Shown here one piece after another: positions 31,079-40,602 of a DNA stretch of 40,811 nucleotides. How positions within the stretch are numbered: position 1 is the first letter of the stretch; each line of letters begins with the position of its first letter. The notes under the pieces are model-generated. The model was not told the origin of the DNA, did not search any database, and saw only the letters and a list, made by a program, of their open reading frames with translations. The position numbers and the translations under genes were made by a program. Source of the stretch: Lachnospiraceae bacterium (lineage in GTDB: Bacteria > Bacillota > Clostridia > Lachnospirales > Lachnospiraceae). The stretch covers positions 1 to 40,811 of the forward strand of contig JAFXGP010000091.1 in assembly GCA_017521195.1 (NCBI GenBank), given 5' to 3'.

Positions 31079-32149
31079 ATGAAAAAAATCTTAGTTGTTG
31101 ATGACTCTGCACTCATGAGAAGGGTTCTTTGTGATATAATAGAGCAAGATAAGAACCTGAAAGTAGTTGATAAAGCTACTAACGGATTAGAAGCTTTAGA
31201 GTTGATTAAAAAGAACAGTTATGATGCCGTGGTACTGGATGTAAATATGCCTGTGATGAATGGTCTTGAATTGCTGAAAGCATTACGCAAAGAAAAAATT
31301 GCTGTTCGTATCATGATGGCAAGTACAGATACCAGAGAAGGGGCACAGACAACATTAGATGCTTTGGAATTGGGAGCATTGGATTTTGTTCATAAACCGG
31401 ATCGTGCATTAGATTGTAGAGGAGAAGAGTTTACCAAAAACTTTCTTCGTACATTAAGTGCAGTAGTGAATTCTAATCCACCGGTATTTACTAAGGTTTT
31501 CAGTAGAGAAGATAGTCAGAATACGAAAAAAATTGTGGAATTAGTGAAGAAAAAAGGTGTAGCTAATGCCGGCAAGCAGATTGTAGCCATTGCCAGTTCA
31601 ACAGGCGGACCGAAGTCTTTACAGTCCGTAATTCCGCGTCTTCCTGAAAATTTGGATGCACCGGTAGTTCTTGTACAACATATGCCAACCGGATTCACTA
31701 AATCCATGGCAGAAAGATTAGATTCTTTAAGTTCCATGCACGTAAAAGAAGCTGAAGAGGGTGAAGAACTTAAAAAAGGCTGGGTATACGTGGCACGAGG
31801 AGGAAAACATCTTAACGTAGTAGAGAAACAGGGGAGATCTATTATCCGTTATACAGATGAACCATCCAGAGAAGGTGTAAAACCATGTGCGAATTATATG
31901 TATGAATCTCTTGTTAACAGTAAATACGAAGAGATTGTGTGTGTAGTTCTTACAGGAATGGGTTCAGATGGGACAGAAGGAATTACAAATCTTAAGAGTA
32001 AGAAAAAAGTGCATGTTATATCTCAGGATGAACAAAGCTGTATCGTATACGGAATGCCAAGAAGTGTAAAAAGAGCAGGATTATCCGATCAGGTTGTGGC
32101 ACTGGATCAGGTTGCACAGGAAATTATTTTACGCGTGGGGGTAAATTAA
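31079..32149 (+). CDS. cheB: chemotaxis protein-glutamate methylesterase CheB
   Basis: CheB demethylates and deamidates chemoreceptors for adaptation when phosphorylated by CheA. The 356-residue protein has an N-terminal receiver domain (Asp8/Asp9, phosphoacceptor Asp54 in VVLDVNMP, Lys106 in VHKPD) and a C-terminal esterase domain. The catalytic triad is Ser174 (SSTGGP), His201 (VQHMP) and Asp297 (GMGSDGTEG). A strong AGGAGGGGG precedes ATG 31079, and cheA begins one base after the stop. No cheR methyltransferase gene accompanies it in the window. Confidence 0.97.
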   Translation: MKKILVVDDSALMRRVLCDIIEQDKNLKVVDKATNGLEALELIKKNSYDAVVLDVNMPVMNGLELLKALRKEKIAVRIMMASTDTREGAQTTLDALELGALDFVHKPDRALDCRGEEFTKNFLRTLSAVVNSNPPVFTKVFSREDSQNTKKIVELVKKKGVANAGKQIVAIASSTGGPKSLQSVIPRLPENLDAPVVLVQHMPTGFTKSMAERLDSLSSMHVKEAEEGEELKKGWVYVARGGKHLNVVEKQGRSIIRYTDEPSREGVKPCANYMYESLVNSKYEEIVCVVLTGMGSDGTEGITNLKSKKKVHVISQDEQSCIVYGMPRSVKRAGLSDQVVALDQVAQEIILRVGVN

Positions 32150-32150
32150 A

Positions 32151-34226
32151 ATGGATGTAAGTCAGTATCTCGAGATTTTTATTGATGAAACAAAAGAACA
32201 TTTACAGAGTTTAAACACACAGATTCTGGAATTGGAACAGAATCCGGAAAACATGGATACTATTAATGAAGTATTCCGTGCTGCACATTCTTTAAAAGGT
32301 ATGGCAGGAACCATGGGTTACAAAAGAATGCAGAATTTAACCCATGATATGGAGAATGTTTTTTCAGAAGTAAGAAATGGACACATTAAAGTAAATGCTT
32401 CCATGATCGATTGTTTGTTCCAGTGCTTGGATGCTTTGGATGAATATCTTGGTAATATTCAGGAAAGCGGTGATGAAGGAACAAACGATAACGAACTCCT
32501 TATTAAAGATTTAAATGCTATGCTTGACGGCGGTGCACAAAAAGCAGAAGATAAAAAAGAAGAAGTAAAAGCAGAAGCACCTGTTTCTGATATTTCTAAA
32601 GAAAAATGGAAAAATATTCCTTTGGGAGATGCTGAAAATCATGTTTTGGCAGAAGCTGCAAAACAGGGTAAGAATATTATCGGTCTTACCGTATATGTAC
32701 AGGAAAGCTGTATTTTAAAAGCAGCAAGAGCATTCTTAGTATTTAAAGCATTGGAAGATTTAGGAGAGATTATTGTTTCTAATCCATCTGCACAGGATAT
32801 TGAAGATGAAAAATTTGATTTTGAATTCAGTATTATTATGATTGCAGATTGCGATGCGAAAAAAGCTATTGATGCGGCAAGTTATGTATCTGAAATTCAT
32901 GAAGTAGTTGGAAGCATTATGACACCTCCTACATATGAAGAAACAGAAGAAGTGAAAGAAGAGGCAAAAGAAGAAACTGTAGCAACACAAACAGTTCAGG
33001 AAGCACCTGCTGCTAAGAAAGAAGCAAAAGCACCTGCGGCAACAGCAGTAGCTGAAAAGAAAGGAAAACCTGTTGTTAACAGAACAGTTCGTGTTGATAT
33101 TGAAAAATTAGATGTTTTAATGAACCTTGTAAGTGAGTTGATTATTGCAAAGAACTCTCTTGTATCTGCAACTAATGCAGAAGGTGCAGTTAATGTAGGT
33201 GTTAACGAACATATTGAATATCTGGAAAGTGTTACAACTAATCTTCATGAATCCGTTATGAAAGTTCGAATGGTTCCGATTGAAAGTGTTGTAAACAAAT
33301 TCCCACGTATGATTCGTGACTTACAGAAAAAATTAGGCAAGAAGATGGAATTATATATGTCCGGTGAAGAAACAGAACTTGACCGTACTGTAGTAGATGA
33401 AATCGGTGATCCTTTGATGCACTTGCTTCGTAATTCCGCCGACCATGGTTTGGAATCAGCGGCAGTGAGAAAAGAAAGAGGAAAACCTGAAGTTGGTTCT
33501 ATTTTCTTAAATGCTTATCAGGAAGGTAACAACGTAGTTATCGAAGTTAGAGATGATGGTAATGGTATTGATGTGGATGCTGTAAGAGCGAAAGCAATCG
33601 AGAGAGGCACCATAACAGAAGAACAGGCTGAGTCTATGAGTGAAAAAGAAATCATTAATTTACTGTTCCTTCCAAGTTTCTCTACAGCAAAACAGGTATC
33701 AGATGTATCCGGTAGAGGTGTAGGTCTTGACGTAGTTAGATCTAAGATTGAATCCTTAAGTGGTGAAGTAGAAGTTAAGAGTAAGTTGGGTGTTGGAAGT
33801 ACATGGATTATCCGTCTTCCATTGACATTAGCCATTATTCAGGCACTTATGGTGGTTGTTGGCGGCGAAAAATATGCGATTTCTTTAGGAAGCATCCAGA
33901 CAATCGAAGATATTTCTCCGGCGGATATTAAGTTTGTACAGTCCAAAGAGGTAATTACTCTTCGTGGAAATGTTATTCCGTTAGTTAGATTAAACAAAGT
34001 TCTTGGTATTGAATCAACTAAGAAAGAAGATGAAAACTTAATTGCTGTTATTGTTAAGAAAGGTGATAAACAGGCAGGTCTTATTATTGATGAATTAATG
34101 GGACAGCAGGAAATTGTTATCAAATCCTTAGGAAAATATATCAATAAGAGTAAAGAAATCAGCGGAGCAACCATTCTTGGTGATGGTGAAGTGGCATTGA
34201 TTTTAGATACCAATGCATTGCTCTAA
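32151..34226 (+). CDS. cheA: chemotaxis histidine kinase CheA
   Basis: CheA is the receptor-coupled kinase that phosphorylates CheY and CheB. The 691-residue protein has the HPt domain with phosphorylated His46 (RAAHSLKGMAGTMGY) and a P2-type response-regulator-binding domain (about 155-262). An acidic then Ala/Lys-rich linker (263-310) leads to the dimerisation helices (VRVDIEKLDVLMNLVSELII). The ATPase follows (N-box LLRNSADHGLE, then VRDDGNGID, FSTAKQVSDVSGRGVGLD), and a CheW-like P5 domain ends the protein. Its full domain set indicates an active kinase. Confidence 0.97.
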   Translation: MDVSQYLEIFIDETKEHLQSLNTQILELEQNPENMDTINEVFRAAHSLKGMAGTMGYKRMQNLTHDMENVFSEVRNGHIKVNASMIDCLFQCLDALDEYLGNIQESGDEGTNDNELLIKDLNAMLDGGAQKAEDKKEEVKAEAPVSDISKEKWKNIPLGDAENHVLAEAAKQGKNIIGLTVYVQESCILKAARAFLVFKALEDLGEIIVSNPSAQDIEDEKFDFEFSIIMIADCDAKKAIDAASYVSEIHEVVGSIMTPPTYEETEEVKEEAKEETVATQTVQEAPAAKKEAKAPAATAVAEKKGKPVVNRTVRVDIEKLDVLMNLVSELIIAKNSLVSATNAEGAVNVGVNEHIEYLESVTTNLHESVMKVRMVPIESVVNKFPRMIRDLQKKLGKKMELYMSGEETELDRTVVDEIGDPLMHLLRNSADHGLESAAVRKERGKPEVGSIFLNAYQEGNNVVIEVRDDGNGIDVDAVRAKAIERGTITEEQAESMSEKEIINLLFLPSFSTAKQVSDVSGRGVGLDVVRSKIESLSGEVEVKSKLGVGSTWIIRLPLTLAIIQALMVVVGGEKYAISLGSIQTIEDISPADIKFVQSKEVITLRGNVIPLVRLNKVLGIESTKKEDENLIAVIVKKGDKQAGLIIDELMGQQEIVIKSLGKYINKSKEISGATILGDGEVALILDTNALL

Positions 34227-34244
34227 AAAGGGGGGAATAACAGA

Positions 34245-34697
34245 ATGGAAAATACAAAGAAATTTGCAGATACAGCACAGTACATCGTTATTTCAATGGG
34301 CGATGAACAGTTTGGTATTGATATTAAATACATAGATAATATTGTAAAAATGCAGCATATTACAAGAGTTCCAAATGTGGCATCTTATATTAAAGGTGTA
34401 ATTAACCTTCGTGGTGAAGTTCTTCCTGTAATGAGTTTACGTTTGAAAATGGGATTAGAAGCAGATGTAACCACAAAAAATACCCGTATTATTATTTTAA
34501 GATTAGAACAGTATGGTATGATTGGTATTATTGTAGATGAAGTTAAAGAGGTTCTTACATTAGAAGAAACTTGTATTGAAAAAGTTGCAAGTGATAGTAA
34601 AGAGGATAGAGATGGATTCGTATTTGCAGTAGGTAAATGTGAAGATGGATTAGTTTCTTTATTGGATTTGAATGCAGTTGCATTAGAAAAAGAATAG
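34245..34697 (+). CDS. cheW: chemotaxis coupling protein CheW
   Basis: CheW links CheA to chemoreceptors. The 150-residue protein consists of a single CheW/SH3-like double barrel with YIVISMGDEQFGIDIKYIDN, the conserved VPNVASYIKGVINLRGEVLP and a GIIVDEVKEVLTL segment. A very purine-rich AAAAAGGGGGG ribosome binding site precedes ATG 34245. It is followed by cheC and cheD. Confidence 0.97.
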   Translation: MENTKKFADTAQYIVISMGDEQFGIDIKYIDNIVKMQHITRVPNVASYIKGVINLRGEVLPVMSLRLKMGLEADVTTKNTRIIILRLEQYGMIGIIVDEVKEVLTLEETCIEKVASDSKEDRDGFVFAVGKCEDGLVSLLDLNAVALEKE

Positions 34698-34714
34698 TTG
34701 CTTGGGGGTAGCAC

Positions 34715-35329
34715 ATGAGTGGAATGACAGTTGGGGACATGTCTGCACAGTACATGGACGTATTAAAAGAGTTAGGTAATATTGGTGCGGGAAATGCTAC
34801 TACAGCTTTGGCAGAGCTTTTACAATGTAAAGTAGACATGAATGTTCCGCAGGTAAAATTAATTAATTTCTCTGAAATTGGAGAATTAATCGGCGGCGAA
34901 GATCAGGTTATGGCAGGAGTATATCTTGCAATTCAAAAAGATATTACCGGTAGTATTCTTTTTCTTGTGAAAGAAGAAGTTGCTTTACATCTTGTGAAGA
35001 AACTTATGGGAGATTATGCGCAGGACATTTATGGTGAAATGGAACAATCTGCGCTGAAAGAGATTTCTAATATTATTACGGGTGCTTATTTGAATGCTTT
35101 AAGTACTATGACAGGTTTGAGAATTGAACCTTCAGTTCCGGATTTAACAATTGATATGGCAGGAGCAATTTTAAGTGTACCTGCTATAGAGTTCGGAATT
35201 ATGGGGGATGAGATGTTACTTATCCAGTCTCAGATATATGATGAAATAGCTATAGATGGTTTCTTTATTATGGTTCCGGATGTGGATTCCTATGTGAAGA
35301 TACTTAACTCACTGGGAATTACAGTATAG
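34715..35329 (+). CDS. cheC: CheY-phosphate phosphatase CheC
   Basis: CheC removes phosphate from CheY and interacts with CheD in Gram-positive chemotaxis. The 204-residue protein has both phosphatase half-sites, D-x3-E-x2-N in MDVLKELGNIGAGNATTAL and S-x3-E-x2-N in QSALKEISNIITGAYLNAL, each followed by a Pro-containing strand. A CTTGGGGGTAG ribosome binding site precedes ATG 34715. It adds to the related phosphatase core of FliY at the motor. Confidence 0.96.
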   Translation: MSGMTVGDMSAQYMDVLKELGNIGAGNATTALAELLQCKVDMNVPQVKLINFSEIGELIGGEDQVMAGVYLAIQKDITGSILFLVKEEVALHLVKKLMGDYAQDIYGEMEQSALKEISNIITGAYLNALSTMTGLRIEPSVPDLTIDMAGAILSVPAIEFGIMGDEMLLIQSQIYDEIAIDGFFIMVPDVDSYVKILNSLGITV

Positions 35330-36936: not shown

Positions 36937-36961
36937 TGCTTTAAACATGGAGGAAAGAACA

Positions 36962-38557
36962 TTGGAGATTAATAAAAAGTACTCCTATTTTCAAGTAATT
37001 AATGAAGAAACAAAAACCAACCTTAAGCTGGTGCGTGGAGAAACTCCGTTAGTTGTTACGGAAGTTGCTGATTATTTAACCCAACATAAGATTTCTTTTA
37101 ATCTTACAGAATTAAATAAGGCAGTTATATCGGTTAGAGACGAGTTGATAATTGAATTGTGCAAACAGAAATCTTTCCCTATTCGTGAGGAATTTATTTT
37201 AAATGTCAGTGAAAATAAAATGCAGGCAATAGGTAGATTTTATCCTCCGTCTAATGATGGCGGATATATGGATAAAAAGGAAATTCTGGCAGATTTAAGA
37301 TATAAAGGCATTGTTTTTGGGGTTGATGAGCAGATTGTAGATGACTTTTTAAGCGAAAGAAGTTATTGTAATAATATTATTCTTGCCTCCGGACAGGAGC
37401 CGAGACACGGAAGTGATGCCTGGATTGAATATTTGTTTAATACAGATGTAAAAGCAAGACCTACTTTGCAGGAAGATGGTAGTGTGGATTTCTTTCATTT
37501 AAATATTATTAACCATGTAAAAAAAGGAGATTGTCTTGCAGTTTTACATCCGGAAGATTTGGGAGATGACGGTCGTGACGTATATGGTAATGTAATTAAA
37601 CCAAGAAGTGTTAAACGTGAATTGTTAAAATTTGGACGTAACATTGATTTGGCAGAAAATAGACGTGAAATATATTCGCAAGTAGACGGACATGTTAACC
37701 TTGTAGAAGGAAAAGTTTTTGTAAGTGATGTTATGGTAGTGGAAAATGTGGATATTTCTACCGGTGACATCGATTATGAAGGTAATGTACAGGTTAATGG
37801 TAATGTATGTTCTAATTACAAAGTCAGTGCCCGTGGAAATGTGGAAGTCAGAGGTGTCGTTGAAGGTGCTGAGATTACAGCAGGTGGTAATGTAACTATA
37901 GCAAGAGGTGTAAATGGTATGTCCAAAGGGGTGATTAAAGCCGGAGGAAATATCATAGCACAATTTGTAGAAAATGCTAAAATAGAAGCTCAAGGATATG
38001 TAGAAACAGGATCTATCCTGCATAGTAATGTTTCGGCCGGAACTGAAATAAGAGTAGGTGGGAAAAAAGGCTTCATTACAGGTGGTTATGTATGTGCCAC
38101 AAACTTAATAGAAGTTAAAACACTGGGTGCTGAATTGGGAGCTAATACCATTGTTGAAATTGGTATTAATCCGGATACGAAACGTAGATATCATGCATTG
38201 GAAGAACAGATAAAAGCGGATACCAAAACGATTAATACAGCACAGCCTGTTTTAGATGCTGCGAAAGCAAAAATTCTTTCCGGAATAAAATTACCACCGG
38301 AACAGGTAAAGAATATTCAGGATTTATCAAATGTGGTTACTTTGAAGAAAAAAGGAATTGAAGCAGCTGTGAAAGAAATGGAGCAGTTAGAAGAAATTAT
38401 GAATATCAGCAATGAGGCACAGATTATTGTAAAAGATAGAGTGTATCCGGGAACAAAGATTGTAATTTCTGATGTATCCAGAATTATGAAAACACAGGCT
38501 CAGTACTGCCGGTTTATTAAATCAAAAGGTGATGTAGCAATTGTAGGTATGATATAA
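36962..38557 (+). CDS. fapA: FapA/DUF342 flagellar assembly protein A
   Basis: The 531-residue protein is a DUF342 member. An N-terminal domain (about 1-170) is followed by a right-handed beta-helix type core with repeated short strands (GNVQVNGNVCSNYKVSARGN, VEVRGVVEGAEITAGGNVTI, KGVIKAGGNIIAQFVENAKI). A C-terminal coiled coil follows at about 405-490. DUF342 proteins often lie next to sigma-28 genes, where they are annotated FapA, but their molecular role is poorly known. The frame also has ATG 36947, but the clear GGAGG (36949-36953) lies inside that start and 8 bases before TTG 36962, so I prefer 36962. Confidence 0.85.
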   Translation: MEINKKYSYFQVINEETKTNLKLVRGETPLVVTEVADYLTQHKISFNLTELNKAVISVRDELIIELCKQKSFPIREEFILNVSENKMQAIGRFYPPSNDGGYMDKKEILADLRYKGIVFGVDEQIVDDFLSERSYCNNIILASGQEPRHGSDAWIEYLFNTDVKARPTLQEDGSVDFFHLNIINHVKKGDCLAVLHPEDLGDDGRDVYGNVIKPRSVKRELLKFGRNIDLAENRREIYSQVDGHVNLVEGKVFVSDVMVVENVDISTGDIDYEGNVQVNGNVCSNYKVSARGNVEVRGVVEGAEITAGGNVTIARGVNGMSKGVIKAGGNIIAQFVENAKIEAQGYVETGSILHSNVSAGTEIRVGGKKGFITGGYVCATNLIEVKTLGAELGANTIVEIGINPDTKRRYHALEEQIKADTKTINTAQPVLDAAKAKILSGIKLPPEQVKNIQDLSNVVTLKKKGIEAAVKEMEQLEEIMNISNEAQIIVKDRVYPGTKIVISDVSRIMKTQAQYCRFIKSKGDVAIVGMI

Positions 38558-38615
38558 ATGAATTTGATTTTCTTAATGTGCTTTGAATGAAGTGGTGGAA
38601 GAATGGAGGAAACAA

Positions 38616-38948
38616 ATGGCAATAGGACAGGTAGAACTAAATCAGGCTATGACCAGAATCCAGGATTATACAACTCAAAAGCATAATGAAGATCAGCGGG
38701 GAACTTTGCAGCAAACTCAGGCACAAGATAAATTCAATAAAGATTTGAACCAAGATATCCATAGAGTACTTAAGATTAGTCAGGAAGAGTACCAGAATAG
38801 GACAGAATATCAGAATAAAAAATTTGATGCCAGAGATAAAGGTAGCAATCAGTACACCGGTGATGGAGGAAAGCAGAGGAAGATGAACGCGAAATCTGAG
38901 GATAAGGTGACACCTAAGAAAACTTCAGGTTTTGACATTAGGATATAA
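38616..38948 (+). CDS. conserved-looking Gln/Asn-rich small protein, unknown function
   Basis: The 110-residue soluble protein is highly charged and Gln/Asn-rich. A helical N-terminal half starts MAIGQVELNQAMTRIQDYTT, a Gly-containing ARDKGSNQY-x-GDGGKQRK motif lies near residue 75-90, and the C-terminus is SGFDIRI. I recall similarly arranged proteins ending in GFDIRI/GFDIKI behind fapA in Lachnospiraceae, but know no function. The frame opens at TTG 38583; GGAGG (38605-38609) lies 6 bases before ATG 38616, the preferred start. No membrane segment or signal peptide is visible. Confidence 0.8.
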   Translation: MAIGQVELNQAMTRIQDYTTQKHNEDQRGTLQQTQAQDKFNKDLNQDIHRVLKISQEEYQNRTEYQNKKFDARDKGSNQYTGDGGKQRKMNAKSEDKVTPKKTSGFDIRI

Positions 38949-38952
38949 AAGT

Positions 38953-38989
38953 GGAGGCAGCCGGAGAATATCCGGCTGAAATTAATATG
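38953..38989 (+). promoter_or_regulatory. ribosome binding site separated from its start codon by a hairpin
   Basis: GGAGG at 38953-38957 is followed at once by a perfect 8-base stem (CAGCCGGA 38958-38965, TCCGGCTG 38971-38978, loop 38966-38970), then 8 bases (38979-38986) and ATG 38987. The linear gap is 29 bases, far too long, but folding the hairpin removes 21 and leaves an ideal 8. A competing GTG start lies at 38951, with AGGA at 38940-38943 upstream. Confidence 0.6.
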
Positions 38990-39778
38990 GGACTTACAGA
39001 AATTTTATTAATTGTATTAGGTGTTTTAGCATTTGTGGGAAGTTTTGTAATACCGGAAAGTTTAACAAAAGATAAAGCAAAAGAAATGGAAATACCTGAG
39101 GAAAAAATTAAAGAATTAGTAGAACAGGAAGTGAAGCAGGCTGCATTTCAAATTGAAGAAAAAACGGATGAAACTATATCTGCTGCAGCTGAAAAAACAG
39201 AACGTTATATGGAACGACTCAGCAATGAAAAAATCATGGCAATTCAGGAATATTCAGACACTGTGTTGAGTCAGATTAATAAGAACCATGAAGAGGCTGT
39301 ATTTTTATATGATATGTTGAATAACAAACATATACAGGTAAAAAATACGGCTGCTGAAATTAATACTAAAGTGCAGGATGTAAAGGCTGATATTGACCAG
39401 ACGATTCAGGAACAAATGCTTGAATTGCCTCAGGAAAATAATGTAGAGAACATAGATGTTGGAAATGTAGAAGTAAATTTTGATAAAACTGTTAAAAAAG
39501 ATATAAAAGCAGAGGATGTAAAAGAAGAAAAAACGAAACGAGTTGCTACAAAACGGAAGGCACCGGTTAAGAAAACAATTGCAAAGAAAAAAAGTAACAG
39601 TGAAAAAACTCCGGAAATAGAGATTCAATTTGAACCGGATTCAGATATTGGAAGTAACAAAAGTAAAATTTTAAAGCTTCACGAAGAAGGTAAATCCAAC
39701 ATGGCAATAGCAAAAAGTCTGGGATTAGGAATTGGTGAAGTAAAATTGATTATCGATTTATTTGAAAGCGGAGAATAA
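38987..39778 (+). CDS. membrane-anchored coiled-coil protein with C-terminal helix-turn-helix-like motif (DUF6115-like)
   Basis: With ATG 38987 the 263-residue protein begins directly with a transmembrane helix (GLTEILLIVLGVLAFVGSFV). A long coiled coil (about 30-150) follows, then an acidic to Lys-rich linker (about 155-215, RVATKRKAPVKKTIAKKKS). The C-terminal helical motif (ILKLHEEGKSNMAIAKSLGL, GIGEVKLIIDLF) resembles a small helix-turn-helix. This plan resembles proteins labelled DUF6115, as I recall them behind fapA in Lachnospiraceae. A GTG at 38951 would add 12 residues (MEAAGEYPAEIN) before the helix; starting with the helix fits the family better. Function is unknown; tethered regulatory or scaffolding roles are only inference. 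Confidence 0.75.
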   Translation: MGLTEILLIVLGVLAFVGSFVIPESLTKDKAKEMEIPEEKIKELVEQEVKQAAFQIEEKTDETISAAAEKTERYMERLSNEKIMAIQEYSDTVLSQINKNHEEAVFLYDMLNNKHIQVKNTAAEINTKVQDVKADIDQTIQEQMLELPQENNVENIDVGNVEVNFDKTVKKDIKAEDVKEEKTKRVATKRKAPVKKTIAKKKSNSEKTPEIEIQFEPDSDIGSNKSKILKLHEEGKSNMAIAKSLGLGIGEVKLIIDLFESGE

Positions 39779-40552: not shown

Positions 40553-40585
40553 GAATGGCATTGTTAACAATGCCATTCTTTATAT
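40553..40585 (+). terminator. palindromic terminator ending the motility locus
   Basis: A 26-base perfect palindrome (40553-40578, arms GAATGGCATTGTT and its complement) is followed by CTTTATATA. The T tract is weak, so efficiency is uncertain, but the position after the last gene fits a terminator. Confidence 0.7.
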
Positions 40586-40602
40586 ATAACAGAAAAAAGT
40601 AC

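Follow-up and report, generated by a model that had tools for sequence, protein, structure and literature searches.

A distant Shine-Dalgarno sequence and a conserved intervening hairpin before a flagellar-operon DUF6115 gene: a probable accommodated ribosome binding site in one genus of Lachnospiraceae

Spacer-shortening RNA structures have already been described for two genes of bacteriophage T4, where genes 25 and 38 have spacers of 27 and 22 nt between the Shine-Dalgarno (SD) sequence and the AUG, of which RNA structure leaves 11 and 5 nt, respectively (PMC3014915, in the passages that describe these genes). According to the same passages, only close T-even phages have the arrangement seen at gene 25. 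Another example of structure within a ribosome binding site (RBS) has been described in Escherichia coli thrS, where a split RBS is interrupted by a hairpin that the ribosome accommodates in its folded state; this hairpin, known as domain 2, spans -48 to -14 and lies between two single-stranded parts (PMC3936740, in its account of thrS), and it is essential for autoregulation according to the title of a 1998 paper cited there. The same source describes 5' UTRs with standby sites, in which structure adjoining the SD is tolerated (PMC3936740), and the portion of PMC11087576 that bears on the question places its structure upstream of the SD. In the open-licence literature, none of the titles and abstract openings among the matches listed announced a hairpin between SD and AUG for a bacterial chromosomal gene. 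A conserved case on a bacterial chromosome would suggest that cells, too, use spacer-shortening structures.

Here, a putative case of this kind is described at the end of a 40,811-nt stretch of DNA (the window), which carries a flagellar/chemotaxis operon of a Lachnospiraceae genome. The operon contains ORFs that we take, by eye from their translations, to encode CheA, CheW, CheC, CheD and FliA, and its gene order towards the end is the FliA-like ORF, fapA (FapA being a Pfam match), a small ORF and a gene for a DUF6115 protein (Pfam PF19610, E 1.1e-31). The DUF6115 protein begins with MGLTEILLIVLGVLAFVGSF, which is hydrophobic by eye, and the small ORF, which ends in FDIRI-stop 4 nt ahead of the GGAGG discussed below, has no Pfam match at E 0.01 and no NCBIfam match above the cut-off. 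The initial annotation had spoken of a membrane protein and a "tail gene", and the latter term holds in the sense of the tail of the operon and not in that of a phage tail, the gene being a DUF6115 gene (PF19610). By description, this putative membrane protein at the end of a flagellar/chemotaxis operon resembles SwrB, a membrane protein with a single pass whose gene stands at the end of such an operon (PMC4526659, as characterised there), whereas unlike swrB, DUF6115 is separated from the FliA ORF by fapA and the small ORF. The features of the leader and its flanking genes are as follows, in window coordinates.

38616..38948, + strand: small upstream ORF, 110 aa, with its own GGAGG and then ATG
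38946-38948, + strand: TAA, stop codon of the upstream ORF, read directly from the sequence
38951-38953, + strand: GTG, another possible DUF6115 start in the same frame, not accepted as the conserved one
38953-38957, + strand: Shine-Dalgarno GGAGG, common to all six element-bearing genomes
38958-38965, + strand: 5' arm of the hairpin, CAGCCGGA, the first 7 nt invariant in six genomes
38966-38970, + strand: hairpin loop GAATA, which varies among relatives
38971-38978, + strand: 3' arm of the hairpin, TCCGGCTG, the last 7 nt invariant in six genomes
38979-38986, + strand: unpaired 8-nt spacer AAATTAAT from stem to start codon (8-10 nt in relatives)
38987-38989, + strand: start codon ATG of DUF6115
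38987..39778, + strand: DUF6115 gene, 263 aa, a hydrophobic N-terminal stretch (by eye) followed by a charged region

The distance from GGAGG to ATG, read directly, is 29 nt, and a perfect 8-bp hairpin (38958-38978) abuts the GGAGG with zero gap; the anatomy first reported for this leader, namely GGAGG, a perfect 8-bp stem, a 5-base loop, eight unpaired bases and the ATG at 38987, was exact. The 43-nt leader folds at -15.8 kcal/mol (z -4.25), with none of 200 dinucleotide shuffles as good, and in an 81-nt context z is -2.70, with 2 of 200 shuffles as good. To place this arrangement in its own genome, the window and 20 further stretches (289,477 bases, including 5,630 N in three of the stretches) were scanned for GGAGG or AGGAG followed by 0-3 nt, a perfect stem of at least 7 bp (at least 5 G/C per arm) with a loop of 3-8, then 4-12 nt and a start codon. 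The DUF6115 leader was the only match, and no second site was found in these 289,477 bases with a stem of at least 6 bp and an open frame of at least 60 codons either. Shuffled sets, for which the G/C minimum was relaxed to 4 and no frame filter applied, gave 0.2 matches per set for stems of at least 6 bp and 0.1 for stems of at least 7 bp.

The arrangement is conserved within the genus. Among seven genus genomes, all incomplete (72-89%), DUF6115 is encoded in every one and the hairpin arrangement is kept at the same place in six (G000, which is the genome of the window, G002, G003, G004, G005 and G006). The shared pattern is (A or G)TGGAGG, an optional A, CAGCCGG-N7-CCGGCTG, 8 or 10 nt and ATG. 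The raw spacing from GGAGG to ATG is 29, 29, 29, 30, 31 and 32 nt, and with the hairpin folded out it becomes 8, 8, 8, 9, 10 and 11 nt; the stem lies 0 or 1 nt from the GGAGG and ends 8, 8, 8, 8, 10 and 10 nt from the ATG. The initial annotation had asked for a constant GGAGG and 7-9 unpaired bases in relatives; GGAGG is present in six of six, with 8-10 nt from stem to ATG. All 14 bases of the basal stem are invariant across the six genomes. By contrast, of 185 fourfold-degenerate codons (from fliA, fapA, the small ORF and DUF6115) that share their first two bases in all six, just 4 keep the same third base, so that neutral divergence among these genomes is near saturation. The DUF6115 proteins of the five element-bearing relatives are 39-65% identical to that of the window. 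In a FapA tree of 33 of 35 rows (two were dropped for want of a usable match), the six element-bearing genomes group together (98/93), nested within the genus (98/91), with G001 as sister to the six and G106, which is without the element, next outside (99/95). The element is absent from G001, the seventh genus member, whose leader (L018) instead has an unrelated 11-bp hairpin with G-U pairs that follows AAGGAG, ends 16 nt before the ATG and is of ordinary stability (z -0.94, with 33 of 200 shuffles as good).

The need for such a hairpin can be read from pairing with the anti-SD. For the region from -20 to -4 of ATG 38987, the anti-SD duplex is worth -3.8 kcal/mol, close to what random 17-mers from the window give (median -3.3), which supports the earlier statement that GGAGG is the only strong SD of this gene. 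Across the six genomes the corresponding values are -3.8 to -5.2 kcal/mol and no near SD motif precedes the ATG, whereas G001 has a better local match (-8.0). When the hairpin is removed, the energy reaches -9.3 in the window and -9.3 to -10.2 across the six. These values compare with -9.15, the median across a sample of 214 ORFs from the window's genome, a figure that takes the best in-frame ATG of several in each ORF and favours strong values. A near SD as weak as that of DUF6115 or weaker was seen in 33 of the 214, so a good SD is not compulsory.

On the basis of the sequence comparison and predicted folds, we consider it probable that the DUF6115 leader is a clade-specific accommodated or split RBS like those of T4 genes 25 and 38, here serving a cellular gene. 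In the proposed mechanism, the hairpin at 38958-38978 would take 21 nt out of the 29-nt gap from GGAGG to ATG, giving an effective SD-ATG spacing of 8 nt in the window and 8-11 nt in the relatives; a 30S subunit paired to GGAGG would carry the folded stem beside it, and the ATG could reach the P site. Initiation would then happen with the hairpin folded, and melting the hairpin would be expected to lower translation. Since the stem starts 0-1 nt past the GGAGG, stacking of the hairpin on the SD helix would be possible. The core idea of the initial annotation, a hairpin that shortens the spacer, is supported by the presence of the arrangement in six of seven genomes, by the spacing register and by the failure of the GTG alternative in three of six, while the suggestion of a thermosensor is not supported. 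Gene finders may pick GTG 38951 at loci of this type, or miss the RBS, and the element would offer a compact natural system for studying how a 30S subunit accommodates structure that lies between its SD helix and its P site.

This is like T4 genes 25 and 38, as they are presented in PMC3014915, in that a distant SD is followed by a stable hairpin lying wholly in the spacer, with an effective spacing of about 5-11 nt; the precedent of gene 38, which had been invoked for this locus from the outset, is described in that source, with RNA structure shortening its spacer from 22 to 5 nt. As described there for gene 25, the arrangement is limited to close relatives, in this case six of seven genus genomes. 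Unlike the T4 genes, DUF6115 is a cellular gene of a flagellar operon, its stem begins 0-1 nt after the GGAGG and its basal stem is fixed in sequence, and the comparison sets the T4 accounts beside a case known from sequence and predicted fold alone. The DUF6115 hairpin lies between SD and AUG, as opposed to that of thrS, which in the account of PMC3936740 lies upstream of the usual SD position, and to the standby structures treated there, which sit upstream of the SD.

Predicted folding argues for a fixed spacer. The 43-nt leaders of the six genomes fold at -15.6 to -20.6 kcal/mol, and for each of them none of 200 shuffles did as well. With 140 nt of context, the probability predicted at 37 C for the weakest basal pair is 0.55 in G005, 0.88 in G004 and at least 0.96 in the other four, the lower values presumably reflecting competing predicted folds, and at 70 C it lies at 0.89-0.91 in all six, with that of G005 rising from 0.55 to 0.90. 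It had been proposed that translation might depend on temperature; the predicted basal stem does not melt from 37 to 70 C in any of the six genomes, which argues for a fixed spacer and not a thermosensor, and an RNA thermometer is also disfavoured by the SD and AUG lying outside the hairpin. Sequestration of the SD was considered and set aside, as it is seen in some genomes or longer contexts only and is not conserved: the mean unpaired probability of GGAGG is 0.33 in G000, 0.46 in G005 and 0.03 in G003 in an 80/60-nt context and 0.99, 0.91 and 1.0, respectively, in a 40/30-nt context, and in G002 the first G of GGAGG is predicted to join an outer helix with the spacer.

Variation within the stem is limited to its apex. 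The seven basal pairs never vary in the six genomes, and two-sided changes occur at apical pairs 8 and 9 in G002 only, where A-U is replaced by C-G and the G-C of G004 and G005 by C-G; no pair forms at position 9 in the window, G006 or G003 (two of five distinct rows). Compensatory changes had been named as the sign to look for, and those seen are limited to these two apical pairs. Covariation is weak: seven of nine pairs never vary and both two-sided changes fall in one genome, the two-sided count is equalled or exceeded in 49 of 500 shuffles, and partner shifts of -1 or -2 yield as many such changes. Pure selection on structure at such divergence should have swapped more pairs, and the invariance of base identity exceeds what simple bridging requires.

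This invariance leaves room for a different reading, in which the RBS is overlaid by a hairpin that a protein or another ligand recognises by its sequence, bridging being secondary or under the control of the ligand. Fixed base identity in seven basal pairs at near-saturated divergence speaks for it, and the setting in a flagellar operon would make control of dosage plausible; but no candidate ligand presents itself, no Rfam family matched at the element in a search of 38400-39400 (the one match, elsewhere in that region, was below the gathering threshold with E 0.71), the stem pattern occurs at one place in its own genome, and G+C-rich stems also stay fixed because double changes have to cross a weak intermediate. 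The CsrA motif is a GGA within a hairpin loop; a CsrA site was rejected here, with the GGA of the window sitting in the stem, and CsrA is unsupported as the ligand because the hairpin of G002 has no GGA. We judge a ligand site of this kind unlikely, with a small but appreciable chance of being right. Rather less probable still is a combination, in which the invariant CAGCCGG/CCGGCTG stem would be both a bridge and a receptor for an RNA-binding factor that stabilises or opens it, the factor possibly being one of flagellar assembly or the product of DUF6115 itself. If this were true, synthesis of the DUF6115 protein would be confined to the proper stage of flagellum assembly, by an on-switch that sets the distance from SD to AUG as opposed to hiding the SD. 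Fixed arms in a 7-7-7 palindrome would also suit an inverted repeat that a transcription factor binds as DNA, but the repeat lies inside an operon, a scan of the + strand of 38500-39300 with the sigma-70 consensus, the promoter type covered, found no promoter-like site, and the pattern again occurs at a single place in the genome, keeping its register with GGAGG and ATG within 1-2 nt; we hold this to be very improbable.

The remaining alternatives turn on the reading frame and on the upstream gene. The hairpin could be part of a coding stretch that starts at GTG 38951 (ATG in relatives) and adds a 12-residue N-terminal extension, since the GTG is in frame with an AGGA 7 nt upstream and the frame is open from the ATG in G004 and G005. 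The frame is open into DUF6115 only in G000, G004 and G005, though: a TGA at the end of the stem closes it three codons before the ATG in G002 and G003, the upstream ATG of G006 is out of frame owing to one extra A, and the AGGA is missing from G005. Among the three open-frame genomes, all four variable codons (E/D/V, Y/S, E/D and I/V, by eye), which fall in the loop and tail, differ non-synonymously, and the third bases of the five fourfold codons GCA, GCC, GGA, CCG and GCT are fixed (by eye), against a background of 57 of 259 fourfold sites (22%) fixed in the same genomes. Such a combination of non-synonymous changes and fixed third bases points to a constrained RNA (or DNA) element and not to coding, and the anti-SD energy for the GTG, at -4.0, is near background. 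Homologues in which coding runs in frame through the stem and synonymous changes disrupt the pairing had been named beforehand as evidence against the hairpin; the extension fails in three of six genomes and no synonymous change is seen in the other three, so we regard a coding stretch as very unlikely. Equally hard to credit is an mRNA processing or stability hairpin between cistrons, its place incidental and the ATG reached by coupling or without an SD. The upstream stop does end 37-38 nt before the ATG in four genomes (38 nt in G000, G004 and G005, 37 nt in G002), near enough to allow coupling, but it is 53 nt away in G003 and 131 nt away in G006 with the element intact, so that a nearby upstream stop codon is not conserved and the element is independent of a nearby terminating ribosome. 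The conserved unit, moreover, takes in the GGAGG and stops 8-10 nt short of the ATG, and no T-run follows the stem, so the hairpin is not a terminator; none was found on the + strand of 38500-39300.

The putative accommodated RBS appears to be specific to this clade. The DUF6115 protein was matched in 175 of 397 sampled genomes, 173 of them outside the genus, and leaders were taken from the best-scoring 42 of these 173, of which 40 gave one (L105 and L106 were dropped, having no N-terminal match). In 33 of the 40 an SD motif of at least 4 bases lies 3-14 nt from the start, by a motif list that misses G-run SDs such as GGGGG, which suggests that the starting point was probably an ordinary SD close to the start codon. 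A single origin of the hairpin, within such an ordinary SD-ATG spacer in the common ancestor of the six, is probable. A perfect stem of at least 6 bp between an SD-like motif and the start was found in only one of the 40 outside leaders, L026.

In L026 (2281-2318, minus strand; genome G043, of another genus), DUF6115 is preceded by AAGGAAGG and then a perfect 7-bp hairpin, ATTCTGC-ATAG-GCAGAAT, with 9 nt from there to the ATG. By its sequence, this is possibly an independent case of the same arrangement, in a genus that, like that of G106, is represented by one genome. In another leader, L044 (G296), a very stable hairpin (50-nt leader, -21.7 kcal/mol) lies upstream of a close GGAGGT at the start of DUF6115.

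A repeat family or mobile element was also considered as the source of the stem. A search of the seven genus genomes for AGCCGG-N3..12-CCGGCT gave 19 places, six of which are the DUF6115 element; the genome of the window has a single one, which argues against a repeat family. Eleven of the 13 other places, inspected with 25-nt flanks, did not have the order of GGAGG, stem and start (4-12 nt), the nearest to it being L055, with GGAGG a few nt before the stem and AAGGAG after it. The pattern GGAGG-N0..2-CAGCCGG-N3..8-CCGGCTG was found in 4 of the 397 sampled genomes, and a reversed-pattern control in 1. Two of the four are the DUF6115 leaders of G000 and G002, the other four element-bearing genomes being outside that sample; L065 and L066 were rejected as the same element, as they apparently lie inside reading frames and have no start codon 4-12 nt downstream.

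Some further observations concern the translation signals of the operon. The fapA start given by the ORF caller, ATG 36947, overlaps a GGAGG (36949-36953), and a TTG at 36962 lies 8 nt further on. FapA ORFs in three relatives are 531 aa counted from the first possible start, which fits a start at TTG 36962; this is probably the true fapA start, with ATGGAGG as its SD context, likewise before the small ORF. The ORFs read as cheA, cheW and cheC have a G-run RBS (GGGGG) as opposed to GGAGG (32137-32151, 34230-34245 and 34704-34715). At the end of the operon, past the last ORF, GAATGGCATTGTTAACAATGCCATTC at 40553-40589 is followed by a T/A-rich tail and is, by eye, likely the operon terminator.
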